NCBI RefSeq assembly: GCF_024347295.1 | Contig: NZ_AP025458.1 | Coordinates: 186,001 to 250,000 of the forward strand | Length of the DNA stretch: 64,000 nucleotides | From: Vibrio artabrorum | GTDB lineage: Bacteria > Pseudomonadota > Gammaproteobacteria > Enterobacterales > Vibrionaceae | Reading direction: 5' to 3' | Shown: positions 31,583 through 40,786 of the stretch, piece after piece | Position numbering within the stretch: the first letter of the stretch is position 1 | Layout: every line of letters begins with the position of its first letter | Position numbers and translations under genes: made by a program | Notes under the pieces: model-generated | Database searches by the model: none | What the model saw: the letters and a program-made list of their open reading frames with translations, nothing else | What the model was told of the DNA's origin: nothing

Positions 31583-32473
31583 CTAAAGGCTCATATCAAA
31601 TTTATTTGTGGGTGAGCTTGGTTGTGAAACTCTCTTACCCATGTTACTGATTGTTTCTCTCACATAGTCCCAATACTCAGGTACATCAAGCGTTTTTGCT
31701 TGCAATGTTTGAGGTACAAATCGACTCATCTCGCTGTTGAAGTCAGCCTTAACTACATCATTTTCAGTTAGGTTTTTCATTTGCCTGCCCAGCGCAATCA
31801 AAAAGTCATCACGTTCTTTGTCACGGGCCTCTAGTTTGTTGTTGATTAACTGGTTATTGACCTCAATGCCTCTTTGATTTAGCCACACAATATCCCACAC
31901 ATCACGGGGCTTAATTCGCCTTGCCCTGTATGCTAAAGCAATGAATTTATCAGCTAAAATTTCGTCCATTGTTTGGCAACGGATCAGCATACCTTCTGTT
32001 GGTGTGTCGATTCCGTAATGATTTATAGGCACTCGATTTGTCAAATCGAAAGAGGGTAAAGCACAAACATCAATGTGCATTTTCTGTCTGGGCAGATCAG
32101 CACGGTTTGGTTCTTTCTCGATGCTGATTTTCCACGATGATGTATTCCCTTGCTTGTCTGGGCTAGGTTTATTGACGTATACAGGTATTTCATATTTCTT
32201 TTGCAAAAAGCTCTGTATTTCATCCTCAAGCCCATCAAACATCGATGGCTTAAAATCATGACCACCATTAAAGTCTAAGTCTTCAGATAACCGAGAACTG
32301 TTGTAGCAAAGGCGTAGTGAGGTACCGCCAATGAAGGTGAGTCTTTGTAGTGCCCCGTGTTCTGTCATGACATGCAAAATATCATGATGAAGTATCTCTT
32401 TTTCGATCACTTCAACAACGGGTGCTAACTCAGGGTTACGTTTTAGAATTTCGTCTATTTTTTGTTTTAGCAT
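31583..32473 (-). CDS. AbiEii/AbiGii-family nucleotidyltransferase toxin
   Basis: 296 residues. The nucleotidyltransferase core is IGGTSLRLCYNSSRLSEDLDF, with GG(T)S at 49-52 and the metal-binding Asp pair D65/D67. The central IRCQTMDEILADKFIALAYR and RRIKPRDVWDIVWL segments are family-typical. In type IV AbiE systems the toxin transfers nucleotides to cellular RNA (tRNA in studied relatives) and gives phage resistance. It lies 14 bp after its antitoxin on the minus strand. Its last ~100 bp are duplicated at 30224. Confidence 0.9.
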   Translation of the reverse strand: MLKQKIDEILKRNPELAPVVEVIEKEILHHDILHVMTEHGALQRLTFIGGTSLRLCYNSSRLSEDLDFNGGHDFKPSMFDGLEDEIQSFLQKKYEIPVYVNKPSPDKQGNTSSWKISIEKEPNRADLPRQKMHIDVCALPSFDLTNRVPINHYGIDTPTEGMLIRCQTMDEILADKFIALAYRARRIKPRDVWDIVWLNQRGIEVNNQLINNKLEARDKERDDFLIALGRQMKNLTENDVVKADFNSEMSRFVPQTLQAKTLDVPEYWDYVRETISNMGKRVSQPSSPTNKFDMSL

Positions 32474-32487
32474 AGTAGAGAGCCCAG

Positions 32488-33012
32488 TTAGTGATTTATC
32501 ATTTGTAGGTTTCGTTTACAGCTTTTTAAATCGGCTAATGCTCGATGAGGCATAGCTCGATACATTTTCACCTCTTCGTCGAAGAATAGGTCATTTTCAA
32601 GCTGTGATACTTTGTGCTTAGTATGTGTAAACTCAACCACTCCGTAGCGAGTTTTAAATGTCCCACTTCGCCCCCGAGTCATTAGAGTCAGGCGATCCAT
32701 AATGATTTGAGATATCTCTCCAGTACGTGATAATTCACTCTCTAAACTTATATAATTTAGGTAGCCAGGCCTTAATTTACGGGCGACTTCATATATTGCA
32801 GTTCGGGGATTTGGAGGGGTGATTGTGCTTTCAAAAAGACCATTAGCGATTCGATTAATGGTGCCTTTTTTAACACAGTCGTACAGAAATTTGTTAAAAC
32901 GGGGTGTTTGTTCGACATTGAGAAGGTAGGCAAGTTCAGCCTTACTGAATACGCCTTTGCCAAATTTACTTGATTCAGCCATAGCTGAAATTAGTTTTTC
33001 TACCTTAGCCAC
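32488..33012 (-). CDS. AbiEi-like antitoxin/DNA-binding regulator (DUF6088 type)
   Basis: 174 residues from a GTG at 33012. Residues 15-70 form a winged-helix-like domain (FSKAELAYLLN, then FLYDCVKKGTINRIANGLFE). The middle PGYLNYISLESELSRTGEIS matches AbiEi-type C-terminal domains. It is expected to repress its own promoter and neutralise the toxin. The start codon abuts a 43-bp palindrome and no Shine-Dalgarno is seen, so translation may be leaderless; an internal ATG (32979) is the alternative start. Confidence 0.82.
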   Translation of the reverse strand: MAKVEKLISAMAESSKFGKGVFSKAELAYLLNVEQTPRFNKFLYDCVKKGTINRIANGLFESTITPPNPRTAIYEVARKLRPGYLNYISLESELSRTGEISQIIMDRLTLMTRGRSGTFKTRYGVVEFTHTKHKVSQLENDLFFDEEVKMYRAMPHRALADLKSCKRNLQMINH

Positions 33013-33767: not shown

Positions 33768-33931
33768 CCAAATCGCTTCAAATCTAGCCGTCCAAAATAC
33801 TGAACCCATGTATTTGACACTCAGGGGCGTTTTGCCGTTTAGAAAGCGTTTTAACATAAAATCAGACTCTTGCTGAAAATTGATAGTTGCACTATTATTT
33901 GTACATTGAATTGTACTACTTGGAGTTTAAC

Positions 33932-34213
33932 ATGAGTCGTATTCACTTTGATCAAGATATTCAGCCTTTGTCTGAATTTCGCGCTGGCGTAACGTCATTT
34001 ATCAAGCAAATCAACGAGACTCGTAGACCACTTGTTATCACTCAACGTGGTAAAGGTGTCGCTGTGGTTCTAGACGTTGCCGAATATGAAGCAATGCAAG
34101 AGAAAATTGAGTTACTAGAAGAAATACGAACAGCGGAAGCCCAGGTAGCTTCTGACTTAGGCGTTTCTAACGAAGATGCACGAGCTCAAGTTCTAGGGCG
34201 TATTAAGCGATGA
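33932..34213 (+). CDS. Phd/YefM family antitoxin
   Basis: 93 residues from ATG 33932, preceded by TTGGAG. The Phd/YefM fold is shown by PLSEFRAGVTSFIKQINETR, RPLVITQRGKGVAVVLDVAEY and EAMQEKIELLEEI. The N-terminus binds DNA and the C-terminal tail binds the toxin. TTGTAC repeats at 33898 and 33911 in the short leader may be the operator. It overlaps the toxin gene by four bases (ATGA). Confidence 0.9.
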   Translation: MSRIHFDQDIQPLSEFRAGVTSFIKQINETRRPLVITQRGKGVAVVLDVAEYEAMQEKIELLEEIRTAEAQVASDLGVSNEDARAQVLGRIKR

Positions 34214-34497
34214 AAGTAATTTGGTCACCTTTGGCGCAAGAAAAGCTAGGTGACACCGCTGAATTTATCGCTTTGGACAACCCTGTTGCTGCTGAAAATT
34301 GGGTGAATGAAATCTTTGATAAAACGGAACTTTTAAGCAGTATGCCTGAAATGGGGCGTACGGTGTCTGAGTTACCCCATACAAACTATCGTGAAATCAT
34401 ATTTGGGCATTACCGCATCATATATAGTCTAAGTCACGAAATCAGAGTTCTTACTGTGAGAAACTGTCGTCAAACACTCACGGAAAGTGACGTGTGA
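34210..34497 (+). CDS. RelE/ParE family toxin
   Basis: 95 residues, normal for the superfamily. Pattern: VIWSPLAQEKLGDTAEFIAL, then ELLSSMPEMGRTVSEL, YREIIFGHYRIIYSL and ILTVRNCRQ-type C-terminal strand (VLTVRNCRQ). The RYRIIY-like strand and short spacing favour a ParE-type (gyrase) or RelE-type (ribosome-dependent mRNA cleavage) toxin; sequence alone does not decide. It is coupled to the antitoxin gene by ATGA overlap. Confidence 0.88.
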   Translation: MKVIWSPLAQEKLGDTAEFIALDNPVAAENWVNEIFDKTELLSSMPEMGRTVSELPHTNYREIIFGHYRIIYSLSHEIRVLTVRNCRQTLTESDV

Positions 34498-34558: not shown

Positions 34559-35140
34559 TTACCACTGCCAAGGCAGTTGCCTGTACTGATATCGGTTGAG
34601 CTGAAACGACACCGGTTTCTTGATGGTCGTATAGCTGTAACACTGCCTGTTATGCGGCTTATCGATAATGACGATCTTCTCTCCATAACAAATATCACTG
34701 CGTGGATCTTGGCAATGTTCATATAAAGCAAAAGATAACGCTTGGCACCATTGAAGGTGTTTTTCCCACACTATTGACCTATCCAAATGCCCATCTGTTT
34801 GTTTAAGTGCGTAATAGTACTTCGCTAAAGTCAGCCCAGGGGACTGAGCGTGTAATCGAACATCGTGAAACATAACCATGCCTGAGGTCATCATACTGTC
34901 GGCGTACTTATCGAGTACCGATTGCAACGTTGGATCTTCCATAAAACGCTCATAACATTGCTTGGCTATCGCTTCTAAACGGTGTTGTTCGCTCAATGAA
35001 CTTAACGCCATTTCTTGTTTGTTGCCGATGAGTGTATAAACCGAAGGCAGTTCAGAGCCTAATGCAAAGGCGCACAGTTGATCATTATCGGTTAGGTTTT
35101 GATGGAAGTATTGAGCGCGGTTAAAGGTCAGTATCATCAT
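34559..35140 (-). CDS. Hypothetical protein coupled to the integrase gene
   Basis: 193 residues, not recognised. It has no signal peptide or membrane helix; the middle is helical (HRLEAIAKQCYERFMEDPTL, YADSMMTSGMVMFHD) and it is rich in His, Tyr and Gln. Its ATG overlaps the integrase stop by four bases (ATGA), so it is translated with the integrase. A role as an excision or directionality partner is possible from position only. Confidence 0.6.
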   Translation of the reverse strand: MMILTFNRAQYFHQNLTDNDQLCAFALGSELPSVYTLIGNKQEMALSSLSEQHRLEAIAKQCYERFMEDPTLQSVLDKYADSMMTSGMVMFHDVRLHAQSPGLTLAKYYYALKQTDGHLDRSIVWEKHLQWCQALSFALYEHCQDPRSDICYGEKIVIIDKPHNRQCYSYTTIKKPVSFQLNRYQYRQLPWQW

Positions 35141-36299
35141 GCCGCGCCTCCTAACATCATGTCGTTAAACGCGTTCCCGTCTTGTCTGGAAGCATTGGCG
35201 ACATAAGGGGCGTACACCTCAAACAGCAATTTGGTGTCGCTGTGCCCGAGTTTGTGTGAGATATAGATCGGATTCTCATGCGCGGCAATGTGCAGTACCG
35301 CAGCCGTATGGCGCGTCTCGTAGGCGCGGCGAGGTTTAAGACCGGCCTTTTTCAATGTGGGGTGCCATATCTTTCGGCTAACGTAATGGGTATCAAGTCC
35401 ACGCCCACCTTTTGAGGCAAACACAAATGGGCTGCACTCATCTCTCTTTTCCCACTGACGTGTTAACGCCGCGAACAAGGTGTCGCACATCTGCAAATCA
35501 CGACGTGACTTCGGCGTCTTTACATCACAAATCTCTCCATTCACATAATTTTGTCTCACGCGAATCAAGCGATGGTCAAAATCAATGTGCTCCCAATACA
35601 GGCCATGCACTCACAGCTTCGCATGCCCGTCCAAAATCGCAGTAAAAAATAATCATGCCATTGCTCATCACAGCATTCTAAGAAAGTGCGCACTTCCTCC
35701 ATGGTCAGCGGTTTCGAATCCGCCTTTTCTTCTTTCAGGGATTTGTAGCGTCGAAATGGGTAATCAAAGTGATGCTCTTCGGCGGCGAGGCTCAGAATGG
35801 CAATCAGTGGCCATAAAATGTTATTGATACGCTTGTTGGTGAGTTGTCGCTCGCCATTGGCCTTACGAGCTTCTTGCAGGGTCTGACGAAAAAACTCCAC
35901 TTGAGAGAGCGACACTTCAGAGACTAAGGTATTACCAAAGTGCGGAATGAGGTAGTGCTCAAGGGTGTTCTTTACCACGCCTTTATAACTGGCTTTCCAA
36001 TTGCCTTTTTGACGCTCATACCACTGAATCGCAAAGTCATTGAAAAAAGGATACAGGTGGTCGGGGTACTTCTCGCGCTGTAAGCGTTCAAACAAGGCCA
36101 CTTTTTTACTGTGTGGAAAGTAATCACGGTATTGAAAGGTGCCAAGGTCAATCTCGGCGTTCATTTGTTTGAGCGTGGCTTGAGCAAGCCTGACATTTTT
36201 TGGGGTGGCCATTTGCTGGGTGCCTTCGCGAAAGCGTTGGCCGTACAAATGAAGATCGAACTGAATGCGCCCGTTAGGACGGATGCGAAGATGAGCCAT
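35137..36299 (-). pseudogene. Phage-type tyrosine integrase (DUF3596 N-terminal arm type), frameshifted
   Basis: The start at 36299 (MAHLRIRPNGRIQFDLHLYG) has GGAGG five bases upstream. The N-terminal frame carries the arm-binding and core-binding domains and the first catalytic Arg (FWTGMRSCE). A one-base deletion at about 35608-35612 then changes frame; the intact order would be TGMRSCEVHGLYWEHIDF. The downstream frame holds the remaining catalytic residues: ETRHTAAVLHIAA, KLGHSD and the Tyr in EVYAPYV. Apart from this single break the gene looks complete, so it died recently or is an assembly error. Confidence 0.87.
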
Positions 36300-36721
36300 A
36301 GCGGCCTCCATTGATCTCAGATCTTAAATAGATCTGTCCCTGACCAATGGAATTCGCTAGAATCGAGCCATCGGCTGGGTCTGCTTAAACGTGTCGCAGC
36401 CGGTACGGGGTAGGGAGGTTGCCGCCTTCCTATCCCAACTGCATATTGTGTGTGGCGGTGTGACGCAAGGTCATCATTTGCCAACGCATTTCATAGTCTC
36501 TTTCGAATCCTAAAACGTGTATTCACGTTCATTTCTCAGATTGCCTATAAAACGTTCACTATTGACTTTAGTTGCTTACTGGATCGATGTCCAGTTCTTT
36601 TGGTGGTTTTTTCATCAAAAATGACGGTTCATTGGTGCGCCGCTGATCTGTCATCAAACCCAAACATGTCAGTCTTTTCCCTGCGCGATGTCTGAGTACT
36701 TACTGACTATCATTAATGGCA
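36300..36721. other. 420-bp gap between the integrase and the DnaN-like gene
   Basis: No gene supported. At 36407-36438 a G-rich/C-rich imperfect hairpin is visible (GGGGTAGGGAGG with CCTTCCTATCCC, 6-base loop). Such a structured non-coding stretch beside an integrase start could hold an attachment site or the integrase promoter, but no direct repeat partner was found. Confidence 0.4.
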
Positions 36722-37951
36722 TTACACGTCATCAAATCCAAACAGATCGTTTTGTTTTGGCTTCTTACTTAAGAGTTGTGAGAACTCGATGAGCCGTTTT
36801 AGCTCAGGCAAGAGTTGCAAAGCACGCTCCAAAGGCACACTGTAATAAGGGTGCTTCCCATCTTCGTCATTATGAAACCCTAATTTGAGTTCACCTTGCG
36901 CGTTGCGCAGCACCGTCATCTTGACTTGATCAGCCGATGTGATGTCTTTGATGCGTACATTTGATAAGGCGTTGAGATTGACGCTATACAGTTGCTCTTG
37001 TGAAGTGATGATACTCTTGGTCGTGAGTGGCATTACTGCGCCAACTTTGGGTGTTAAGCTCGCGAAATACATACTCTCAGGGCTGAGGTAAAGTAAGGCT
37101 TGGTTGGTTTTTTTGATCTCTTCGATTTTTTGAAAATTGTCCCTTTCGGCTTTAAATTCAAGAATATCAATCACCACTTTGGCTTCTAACTCAAAATGTT
37201 GCTGCTGTCTTTCTCGGTAGGCGCGTAATGGCGCCAGGGAGTGGCAATACACCTGCTCTCCATCGCTAAACATCGCTTGCTCATCATCGATATAGACAGA
37301 CAAGGTCTCGCTTTGTGTTGTTTGCGCGATCGATTCCAGTGAGAGCTTGGCCTCCGGAGTCAGGGCCATATCGATGTCGATGTTCATACCCTTAGGGAGC
37401 GCGAAAGGAATGATGTCGTTGTCTCGCTCTATTTGAACGCGGTTGCTGTCTTTGTTGACCTCAAACACTGAGAAAGGGGTGCAGGTATTGGCCAGTTGAC
37501 ATATCGCCAGCGCTTGCTTGGTCTCAATAATTTGCTTGGGGTGCGTCATGACGCTATCAAAGAAGGCCAGATGATGTTCACAAGCGGGCTGCGCGAGGGC
37601 GTAGCGAAAGGAGTTCAGTTCGGTTCGCCCTTCCAGCACGACGCCGTCTTGTTGGTTGTCATGACGGAGCTGCAATGAAATCGTTTCTTTTTGGACGATA
37701 TGATTGGTTTGGCACAGCCATAGGTTGGCAAAAGCGGTGGCGCTAAACGAGAAAGCAGCGTTGTCCAATGTGCAATCCGACGCTCTGTCCAACGTGGTCA
37801 TGATGAGCTTCTCCGTCGCGCCGCCAATGAGGTGAAGCGATTTATCAGTGACAATGAAGGTGACAAAGGGGGGCTCGCTGCCTTTTTTGATGCCGCTAAC
37901 CAGCTCGGTAATGCGTGCGTGTACTTCTGGTTGAAAATTCAATGTGTTCAT
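36722..37951 (-). CDS. DnaN-like (DNA polymerase sliding clamp fold) protein of a mobile element
   Basis: 409 residues, unassigned by obvious name. Three successive clamp-like modules can be traced by strand pattern: residues 28-120 (FVTFIVTDKSLHLIGGATE, FSFSATAFANLW, FRYALAQPACEH), 135-245 (IIPFALPKG, LTPEAKLSLESIA, ETLSVYIDDEQAMFSDGEQV, YRERQQ) and 250-380 (ALLYLSPESMYFASL, LYSVNLNALSNVRIKD, YYSVPLERAL). This is the order of DnaN domains I-III. The C-terminus ends PKQNDLFGFDDV, where QNDLF resembles the clamp-binding pentapeptide QL(S/D)LF. Its ATG overlaps the recombinase stop (ATGA). Fold assignment is my inference from pattern, not a search. Confidence 0.55.
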   Translation of the reverse strand: MNTLNFQPEVHARITELVSGIKKGSEPPFVTFIVTDKSLHLIGGATEKLIMTTLDRASDCTLDNAAFSFSATAFANLWLCQTNHIVQKETISLQLRHDNQQDGVVLEGRTELNSFRYALAQPACEHHLAFFDSVMTHPKQIIETKQALAICQLANTCTPFSVFEVNKDSNRVQIERDNDIIPFALPKGMNIDIDMALTPEAKLSLESIAQTTQSETLSVYIDDEQAMFSDGEQVYCHSLAPLRAYRERQQQHFELEAKVVIDILEFKAERDNFQKIEEIKKTNQALLYLSPESMYFASLTPKVGAVMPLTTKSIITSQEQLYSVNLNALSNVRIKDITSADQVKMTVLRNAQGELKLGFHNDEDGKHPYYSVPLERALQLLPELKRLIEFSQLLSKKPKQNDLFGFDDV

Positions 37952-40085
37952 AATGTGTGTCCTTTTTGCTGTGAGGCGTTAAGTATCATGGTGTTCCACC
38001 ATGTTTGAAATTGCTCTAGAAGAAGTGGATCGGTGACTTCTAACTTCAACGCTATCTTGAGTTGAGTGCGACCGGTGGGGATGGTGATTTTATTCGCGGT
38101 GTCTTTTGCTGTGAGTAAAGCCGCCTGTATAAAGTCCCATTTATTACTGTCGAGACGTTTTCGATTTTGATGCAGCGTGATATGACAATGGTATTTGAGC
38201 GGTGATTGCTTGAGGGTGTGGAGCGCTTTTTCCACCTTTTGGTTGCATGGGCTAAGAAAGTACAATTGCTTGCCGTTGTTCATTCCCTCGTCATCGCTTT
38301 GCAACGGTTTTTCTTCGAGGTGTAGCTCGCCAAGGGGACGTAGGGCGGTTCGTGCGGCTTTATTCCATTCAATGCCTTGGTATTGCCCAAAGACGCGCCA
38401 TGCGTCACTCACCATAGAAAAAGCCAAAGGCGTTTCTTTTAAGCGTTTGATTTGTTCTCGAGTTTCCCACTGAAAACGATAAGGGCGGGTTTGGGTTACA
38501 CTTGAGACGCCTTTTGTCCAAAGTCCAATCCACTCGTTGTCGTTTGACTCCGCCTTTTGAAGCCGTTCTTGATCACCACTTGGTTTGCGCTTGCTGCCCA
38601 AACGTTGGCTCAGAGCCTCCGTCAGCTGTGCATGAGTAAAGCTCGGCAGGTGGCGCTGCTTTTCAGAGGGTGAAAGCTGGGCGTATTGAGGGCTGAGTCT
38701 CATCAGAAGACGAGTGATATCATTGGAACCTGGTTTCATTCCCCAGAGGTATCTCAGCTCGGCATGTGTGTATTCTCGCTGTTGAGGGAGAAAGGCAGGC
38801 GCGACCCATTCCATACCATGCAGGTAATGCAGCCGGGTTGTCGCATAGTGTTGATGGCCCAGCATTCGACCGATTTCATCAAACAGCAGCATATTGTTTA
38901 ACTCTGAAAATGAACGCCCTTGCAACCAGTATTGAAATCGCTGCTCTACAACGGATGTTGAGAAGAGAGACGCGGTGACGGGTTGATGCGTTGGATGCCA
39001 AGCCTTTGGCGCCGCACCGTTAGCAAGGCAAAGTGCTTGTTGATAGAGCAGCTTGGCGCCGCTGTGGCGAAGGTGATGAAAACGCGCTTTTTTACCGTGT
39101 AATTGTTTGAGTACTTTCGTGATAGGCAAAAGGTAGTGGCGCGCTCGTAAATGGATGGACTCGCCTTCAAAGCCAATGAATGGCTCGCTAGGAGGGCGGT
39201 TGGCTTTAAACGCCAGTAACAACCGTATTAATTTGGCGCCGATTTCGGGCATCACAACCTGAACCGTGCGCGCGTCTCCGCTTTTTGTTTTGCCTTCCTC
39301 GGTATTGGTAATGTAGATCGCAAATAACTGACCTTTTCGTGGGTGCATCGAATATCTTGAAGGCGCAGGCGCAGGCGCAAGAGTTCCCCGCGTCGAAGGG
39401 CGCCGTAATAACTCAATAACGCGCTGACACTCGCAAATAACGCCTGCATCGGAGACAGGCTGTGCGTTAATAACTGAGTGACCAGGTGGTGCACCTCTTC
39501 AGCGCTAAGAGAAAGGGCATTAATTTTTAGGCTTTGGGTCGGTTTGATGAAGGTCGAGAGATCTAAGTGCTCAGTGATGGATTGCTGAGTAAGAAAACGG
39601 AAAAATTGATACAGAGTCCATTTTTCCATTGTCTCGTCTTGGATGAGGCGGTATCGGTCTTTGGCCCATTGTTGCAGGGCTTCTCTGTCATTGGCGATCG
39701 AGAGAGGGAGTGGGGTCGTCGACAGTTCATTTTTAAAACTGGTGTAGCGCAGCAAGGTGGCGGGGCTGAGGGTGTTTTTTTTCACGCCGCCAAATTGCTT
39801 CAGCTCTTGCACATAATCAAACAATAAGCGGGGCAACAGGTTGTCGGCTTGCCACTCGGGCTGAGTGGGCGCAGCTTGTTGGGGCGTATTGAGCGACTTG
39901 ATGAGCATGGCGTGAGGCCAGCGATGAAACGGAGTCTCTTGGTTCGCATCTTTGGGTTTTATCTTTGCAAACGATGGCGGCTGATAAATATCTTGCGCTT
40001 TGGCTACGCGCGATGAGGCCGCCTCTTGTGGTAACGCACTTACATGGCGCATGGGATCAGAGAAATCTTTTAATATTTCAGGGGG
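37948..40085 (-). pseudogene. Large tyrosine recombinase with C-terminal extension, frameshifted and 5'-truncated
   Basis: Upstream frame (about 40085 to 39320): helical core-binding region and the first catalytic Arg in YGALRRGELLRL. Downstream frame (to 37948): ITNTEEGKTKSGDARTVQV, box II FHHLRHSGAKLLYQQ, and the His/Tyr pair in MLGHQHYATTRLHYLHGM. About 280 further residues of unknown function follow the Tyr. The frames join at about 39325-39335 (THEK / KGQLFAIY), consistent with one lost A in GAAAAGG. The 5' end reads IPPEILKDFSDPM upstream of ATG 40052 and is cut by IS66 sequence near 40085. It is coupled to the DnaN-like gene. Confidence 0.82.
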
Positions 40086-40786
40086 GATGGCGAAGTCTCA
40101 TCAGCCATAATCAGTTTAGATGCTTTGACCGCTTCATGAATTTGAGTATGAGTATCGGCTAAGTATTCAGTGACTCGTCCTTGCGCCGCTGATATTGCAC
40201 CTGTTGAGAAGTTAAGCTGGAAGACGTCTTTCAACATAGATTGTATTTTACCTATGCTTTGGTGGTGCTGCGTCGCTTGGATTGCGATAAAGCTATGTAG
40301 ATTTGGCCCCATTTGAACATCGGGCACATACTCTGGAAGCTCCGCTTGATGCTTATCACCACACCATGAGCTCTCGCCTTTAAAGATTTGATGTTCAACA
40401 AGCGTGTATGAGATATCTGGCAAGTCAAAGATTTGGTGTCGTTTATAAGGTTTTCGATTTGGAATAACACACCCACCGCAGTGGCATATCTTATTTGGTA
40501 AGTATTGCTCAACCGAGGCACTGTCTTCAACAGGGTGAAGCAGTCGGCGGTGGCCTTTATGACCTGGTTGAGCTCCTTGCTTTTTTCCAGATTTCTTCCG
40601 ATTCGGCGAAGTATTCTTAGCTTTATTATGCAGGGGTTGTTGAGATGATGGCACAGAAGAGTTTCGACTATTTTGATTGAGTCGGTCTTCAAGCTCTGCC
40701 AGATTATCCCATAAAAAGTGGATGATGTATTTCGCCTCTTCAGGCGAATCGAAATCTGGCGATGGAGGTAATGTTTTCTTATTCAT
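40070..40786 (-). pseudogene. IS66 family transposase, N-terminal fragment
   Basis: Starts MNKKTLPPSPDFDSPEEAKY at 40786; IS66 TnpC features are the leucine-zipper/linker RLNQNSRNSSVPSSQQP, the zinc-finger-like KICHCGGC region, and KASKLIMADETS, where the first catalytic Asp occurs. After ADETS the sequence switches to unrelated residues (PSPLKY) and stops. The rest of the transposase (about half) is missing because the recombinase sequence begins there. Confidence 0.85.

Follow-up and report, generated by a model that had tools for sequence, protein, structure and literature searches.

The 64,000-nucleotide stretch of Vibrio artabrorum DNA analysed here (G000:C1:186001-250000, from a genome of 4.44 Mb in two contigs, and referred to as the window) encodes a 409-aa protein, ORF4 (36722..37951, minus strand), and raises the question of why a protein with the predicted fold of the sliding clamp DnaN should be encoded next to a large tyrosine recombinase. 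The host's own dnaN lies at C1:1496-2593. The partner genes are called ORF1, ORF2, ORF3 (the large recombinase), INT (an ordinary integrase lying downstream) and ORF6 (a companion of INT). In the reading that we prefer, and to which we give about an even chance, ORF4 is a diverged clamp-fold protein that acts as the replication-coupling subunit of a site-specifically moving recombinase module and docks on the host DnaN by a QxDLF peptide.

A structure search with the predicted ORF4 model gave DnaN in all matches listed, among them 4k3o, in which the E. coli clamp was crystallised with the peptide QADLF. The model thereby indicates a three-domain clamp fold, in agreement with the original prediction, which had described a DnaN-like protein from the letters of the window. 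In close relatives, KLGFHN...SVPLE, which ends domain 3, belongs to the best-conserved stretches, and the last two blocks of the model have mean predicted local distance difference test (pLDDT) values of 62 and 47. A second structure model was of low confidence (pLDDT 44) and is trustworthy in the middle domain only. The frame of ORF4 is intact, and its ratio of nonsynonymous to synonymous substitution rates (dN/dS) against the relative at locus L040 is 0.28, indicating purifying selection. No match to ORF4 was found in plasmids, phages or viral contigs, the last searched with close relatives only. DUF5093 (E 0.086) was set aside as sub-threshold, and sequence searches of the PDB gave only weak antibody and Cas5 rows.

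The last ten residues of ORF4 (residues 400-409, QNDLFGFDDV; 36725..36754, minus strand, counted from the ORF) form a candidate beta-clamp-binding motif. The consensus for such motifs is given in passages of PMC5371812 as QxxL(x)F or QL(S/D)LF, and close relatives of ORF4 end approximately in Q-x-D-[LMI]-[FIL]-G-[FY]-D-D-V. The pattern Q.[DS][LIM][FL] was found in 29 of 41 ORF4 sequences, starting within the last 13 residues in 28 of them, while 200 shuffles gave a mean of 3.6 and a maximum of 8. These 41 rows (27 from the window and loci, 14 from the protein database) are not independent, as they include close relatives and database clusters that possibly equal loci. P0002 and P0013 were omitted from alignment A2, and P0013 (342 aa, truncated) also from A1. 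Anywhere in the partner proteins the pattern occurs at about the shuffled level or below (ORF2 2/26, ORF3 4/24, INT 0/22, ORF6 0/12, ORF1 1/15). Judged from these alignments and the model, the tail of ORF4 is a conserved peptide of clamp-binding type in a predicted flexible segment, and the resemblance of QNDLF to such peptides, first noticed in one protein, holds across most of the family.

A peptide of this type is seen in two sequence-unrelated clamp families, at two different positions. The second family is represented in the window's own genome by an apparently complete module (G000:C2:794374-801569, equal to L134:8375-15570) that encodes proteins of 193, 809, 970 and 421 aa and adjoins IS66-like genes; its predicted clamp-fold protein carries the peptide QISLF.

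ORF4 was found at 29 places in all. ORF3, whole or in pieces, adjoins it at 28 of these, and the arrangement ORF2-ORF3-ORF4 is present at 26. In the 26 loci annotated with iterated profiles, ORF2, ORF3 and ORF4 are always present, together with INT in 22, ORF1 in 15 and ORF6 in 11 (adjoining INT in 9), and the fourth-slot protein measures 403-524 aa (one piece has 368 aa). Split or interrupted copies of ORF3 occur in at least L040, L046 and L059, and L054 has its ORF3 pieces at the two ends of the contig. Apart from the 26 loci, ORF4 was found in the window, in G158:C4, where a 541-aa piece of ORF3 accompanies it and ORF2 is lacking, and in G022, as a fragment on its own. Within the genus, 16 of the 227 genomes have ORF4 (full-length in 15, a fragment in one) and 19 have ORF3; the 15 genomes with strong ORF3 matches are the 15 with full-length ORF4, and the same 15 have INT at 69% identity or more (the window's own INT being in two pieces). 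The pairing with a large tyrosine recombinase that the original prediction saw at one locus is found in its homologues too. One of the four genomes with weak ORF3 matches, G448, has an adjoining degraded clamp of the second family, and in the other three, G435, G474 and G532, no clamp was detected. ORF4 was found in 14 of 394 genomes of the order-level sample, from three genera in three families, and in one of 369 of the class-level sample, the window's own. Six database matches carry an organism name, five being Vibrio and one a metagenome-assembled genome (MAG) labelled Robiginitomaculum; a scan of named genomes with alignment A1 likewise gave one locus, in a MAG of that label. One Shewanella plasmid record matches ORF3 over 37% at 32% identity.

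Some further relatives of ORF3 were met in these searches. Three loci of the genus, L082, L083 and L084, have an operon of proteins of about 190-214, 830 and 1070 aa (L082 is cut at the contig start), of which the last matches ORF3 (hhalign 98.9%); no clamp-fold gene was detected in these operons. L137 (G308:C81, a whole contig of 12648 bp) opens within ORF3, near residue 293, and closes near residue 318 of the same protein, and its ends share no exact overlap; this might represent a circle from which a short stretch is missing, or else a tandem copy.

The two recombinase-fold proteins differ in their catalytic residues. Among the 24 aligned ORF3 sequences (at least 800 aa, the pieces of L046, L054 and the window being left out), neither box I arginine varies and all 24 have HxxR and H....TTR..Y, so that by its motifs ORF3 (~970 aa) is a tyrosine recombinase with no catalytic residue missing. 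In ORF2 (about 530 aa), Y-x-x-R-H replaces H-x-x-R-H in 26/26 (RK in L058), and of the 25 sequences that extend far enough, only L040 has a tyrosine 8-12 residues past the GH histidine; by the same kind of evidence ORF2 is a tyrosine-recombinase-fold protein without the nucleophile. Therefore, ORF2 appears comparable in kind to Tfp or GinC, and ORF3 to a large IntB.

This combination is also seen in strand-biased circularizing integrative elements (SEs), which have a recombinase-fold protein without the catalytic tyrosine and a large complete tyrosine recombinase. The fourth slot of SEs, likewise downstream of the large recombinase, is filled by the small Srap (161 aa in pAQU1), whereas that of the module is filled by the ~409-aa predicted clamp fold. 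That ORF4 might be the Srap of an SE was our first idea, and was rejected because the pAQU1 Srap has 161 aa and is unrelated. The module further differs by its ordinary downstream integrase. SEs have imperfect inverted terminal motifs of 13-19 bp and a 6-bp spacer; in the module, a palindromic repeat centred on GGAAAT, present as direct repeats around ORF2-ORF4, was seen in one clade of five loci. ORF1-4, INT and ORF6 gave no hhalign match to the four SE proteins of pAQU1 (one SE, single sequences), and the likeness is thus one of design rather than of demonstrated homology. GInts (ginABCD), as described in passages of PMC5385486, resemble the module in having three proteins of tyrosine-recombinase type, one of them degenerate, an essential fourth protein and flanking direct imperfect repeats; GinD, compared by description only, is small with an HLH-like C-terminus, in contrast to the clamp-fold ORF4. 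Tn554 (tnpABC) and RIT elements are also transposons of several tyrosine recombinases, and TnpC is described in part of PMC10214605 as the counterpart of Srap and GinD. The archetype RIT has, according to the same part, three recombinases of 315-410 aa that all carry the catalytic tyrosine; the module departs from this with an ORF2 of about 530 aa lacking the tyrosine and an ORF3 of about 970 aa.

Movement of SEs is proposed, in passages of PMC10214605, to be copy-out-like and to require replication of an intermediate with one strand exchanged, and for SEs, GInts and Tn554 alike the conversion of this one-strand exchange to a copied circle is described there as unsettled. Neither PMC10214605 nor PMC5385486 uses the word "clamp" in its main text, and searches of open-access PubMed Central gave no paper whose listing describes an element-encoded clamp with tyrosine recombinases. 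Beta-clamp-binding motifs are known in other transposition proteins, namely TnsE of Tn7 and those insertion-sequence transposases that bind the host clamp (passages of PMC5371812); there the motif is on the targeting protein or transposase, whereas in the module the protein that bears it is predicted to be clamp-folded itself. DnaN shares with ORF4 the three-domain fold, by prediction, but not sequence similarity, and ORF4 has in addition the C-terminal extension with the clamp-binding peptide.

Module and INT are discordant in some loci, as if the module were exchanged as a unit. In 11 pairs of loci INT is at least 85% identical, and in six of these the module is also close (ORF4 83-93%, except in one pair, with 46%, where ORF4 is truncated). 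The other five pairs, all among L007, L011, L040 and L041, have a close INT and a distant module: between L011 and L041, INT is 98% and ORF6 91% identical, against 30% for ORF2, 28% for ORF3 and 20% for ORF4, and between L040 and L041 the figures are 90% for INT and 33% for ORF4. Across loci, identities of ORF3 and ORF4 are correlated (rho 0.74, 276 pairs) more strongly than those of ORF4 and INT (rho 0.26, 231 pairs). Between ORF4 and INT, the window has a stretch at 36629..36670 (minus strand) that would encode MFGFDD, like the scar of another ORF4 3' end, and near the same position L040 has a 3.07-kb insert with a gene that we take to be HipA-like. Because of the discordant identities, the scar-like stretch and the insert, the alignments point to recombination at the ORF4-INT border, either site-specific or homologous.

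Direct repeats around ORF2-ORF4 were found in one clade (L010, L043, L045, L046 and L047), whose ORF4s are 51-93% identical within the clade and at most 25% to others. Here one copy of the repeat, CGATTTTGGAAATAAAAATCG or a variant of it, precedes ORF2 by 107-110 bp and another follows ORF4 at a distance of 20-31 bp; the sequence is palindromic about a GGAAAT centre. When the module ends of 25 loci were compared with 12 shuffles each, direct repeats clearly exceeded the shuffles in L010, L043 and L046, moderately in L051 (16.5 vs 13.5) and barely in L041, L009 and L053; L045 and L047 have the L010-type motif at the same place, not above shuffles in that scoring. A search of the five genomes for CGATTTTGGAAATAAAAATCG with up to three mismatches gave 10 matches, comprising eight module ends, one at an AbiE stretch and one elsewhere, against one match in the reversed control. 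A third copy in L045 brackets a 2.4-kb stretch (L045:2491-4896) with an AbiEi/AbiEii-like pair, as if toxin-antitoxin pairs travelled as cassettes.

The INT-bearing loci outside this clade, 17 of 22, have a LexA-like box between ORF4 and INT with scores of 16.5-20; in 81 random 300-bp windows the 95th percentile of the score is 15.5 and the maximum 19.5. LexA boxes have the form CTG-N10-CAG, which the box before INT (AACTGGACATCGATCCAGTA in the window, 36577..36596, minus strand) fits. Such a box can be read as an attachment core, our first reading, or as a LexA operator, and both fit; as an operator it suggests SOS control of the integrase. INT is preceded by a highly conserved segment of ~110 nt for which an alignment of 21 leaders shows two hairpins (in the window at 36396..36442 and 36338..36379, minus strand; alignment A3 holds 21 of 23 leaders, L042 and L044 being left out). 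Its 24 pairs are paired in 99.2% of cells vs 93.4% in shuffles, both sides are changed in 39 cells vs 14, and the covariation score was reached by 0 of 500 shuffles. Six pairs show a double change, a number attained by 124 of 500 shuffles and so not in excess of them, and these pairs fall in a single helix. A search of Rfam with the leader gave a chance row only, and by eye a similar hairpin is present before the INT of the second family.

The copy of the module in the window is broken, with ORF1 and ORF2 missing, ORF3 and INT frameshifted, and ORF4 and ORF6 open. All parts are on the minus strand. Two overlapping frames, 37948..39348 (the C-terminal part, residues 503-952 of the L007 ORF3) and 39252..40052 (the middle part, residues 258-507), jointly correspond to residues 258-952 of the 987-aa L007 protein, and the start of ORF4 overlaps the former by 4 bp on the same strand. 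A truncated IS66-family transposase ORF (40070..40786; NF033517 positions 1-159 of 387) occupies the place expected for the 5' part of ORF3 and for ORF1-ORF2, and homology to L040 ends at 40095. INT is split by a frameshift into an N-terminal part (35565..36311, Arm-DNA-bind_2) and a C-terminal part in another frame (35137..35610, Phage_integrase catalytic domain), followed by ORF6 (34559..35140), which encodes 193 aa without an assigned function. The original prediction of a DnaN-like protein coupled to a large recombinase is therefore right as to the intact ORF4 and the 4-bp overlap, but the recombinase is a degraded remnant in two frames, and the pair is not the working recombination module that had been envisaged. 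The selection recorded in the dN/dS of ORF4 may predate the breakage.

Directly downstream of the remnant lie a Phd/YefM-ParE pair (33887-34497) and an AbiEii toxin with an AbiEi-like neighbour (31583-33012). Toxin-antitoxin-type genes were noted in 16 of 27 module neighbourhoods, and surface-polysaccharide genes (UGD, GalU, UGE, GlmM or WecA-like) in 15; these counts cover the 26 loci and the window, with eleven query genes, labels given by eye and stretches of unequal length (64 kb for the window).

A large recombinase with its partner ORFs, the usual integrase, and a clamp fold with its peptide would together fit a replication-coupled recombination module. We infer a mobile unit of ORF2, ORF3, ORF4 and ORF1 (the last not always recognised), usually with INT and its structured leader and sometimes with ORF6, which would most likely move site-specifically in the manner of SEs or GInts. 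ORF2 would bind DNA, ORF3 and perhaps also INT would exchange strands, and the flexible peptide of ORF4 would attach the recombination complex to the DnaN ring of the host, where the strand-exchanged intermediate would be handed to, or held at, the replisome for a copy-out step. Of the two roles first suggested for the protein, a link between recombination and replication is the one that the conserved motif favours; competition with the host clamp for its partners is possible but not favoured.

Several observations weigh against this reading. Superposition of the model on whole DnaN chains gives TM-scores of only 0.45-0.63 at root-mean-square deviations of 5-9 A, and the relationship is not seen in sequence: hhalign gives a probability of 3% against 21 DnaN sequences, no DnaN family is reached in Pfam or NCBIfam at E <= 1 by the window ORF4 and four relatives, and ORF4 reaches no curated family in Pfam, NCBIfam, PHROGs or PADLOC. 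The best row below threshold was PdxA (L007 ORF4; E 0.0013, 18.7 of 27 bits), which has a different fold and was set aside. The assumed inner helices have a net charge of +1.4 vs +4.9 in 21 DnaN sequences (DnaN helix borders set by eye), and because they are less basic, encirclement of DNA by ORF4 is unsupported. Thirteen of the 41 tails (one of them the truncated P0013) lack the strict motif, some having look-alikes (QGDMI, QIDGI, QLDLV) and others none. The discordance of module and integrase comes from five of the 11 close INT pairs, the direct repeats are clear in the single clade of five loci, and in G435, G474 and G532 related large-recombinase operons were found with no clamp detected.

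ORF4 might instead be a structural subunit of the recombination complex, a stand-in for Srap, GinD or TnpC in which the clamp fold is a scaffold and the tail binds a protein of the element. Its position downstream of the large recombinase, as in Srap, the overlap with ORF3 in the window and the co-evolution with ORF3 are consistent with this; we nevertheless think it unlikely, as a private contact would not predict the known clamp-binding consensus in two unrelated families at two positions. A working clamp owned by the element, put as a ring on element DNA by the host clamp loader to serve replication of the circular or strand-exchanged intermediate, with the tail docking in its own cleft or on a partner, would agree with the full three-domain fold in prediction and with the highly conserved end of domain 3 in close relatives. 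The low positive charge of the inner helices argues against it, as does the fact that neither a polymerase nor a loader was noticed among the genes listed (three loci partly listed); moreover, a clamp needs no clamp-binding peptide of its own, and this alternative seems rather improbable.

A clamp fold joined to a clamp-binding peptide could also poison either partner, and the LexA-like box in 17 of 22 loci would suit a protein acting on the host clamp or its clients as a decoy or inhibitor, whereby host replication is slowed or rival elements are excluded. With ORF4 adjoining ORF3 at nearly all its places and no PADLOC family matched, such a role is very unlikely. Least credible is a captured paralogue of the host DnaN, carried as a passenger with no part in recombination: the predicted fold is the same, but no sequence similarity to the host DnaN was found, and the presence of two families in the same slot, the linkage and the purifying selection speak against it.

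The modules may constitute a previously undescribed family of tyrosine-recombinase elements, with two or more lineages of clamp-fold protein that are unrelated in sequence. Through this protein and its docking peptide, strand exchange would be connected to the host replisome, and a clamp would be supplied by the element as well as by the host; we give this proposal somewhat less than an even chance. An element-encoded clamp-fold protein with a docking peptide for the host clamp would make the replication link of such elements directly testable, and the clamp fold would here serve recombination and not processivity. The structural clamp fold and the QxDLF motif would also provide two markers for finding elements that are missed by sequence profiles.
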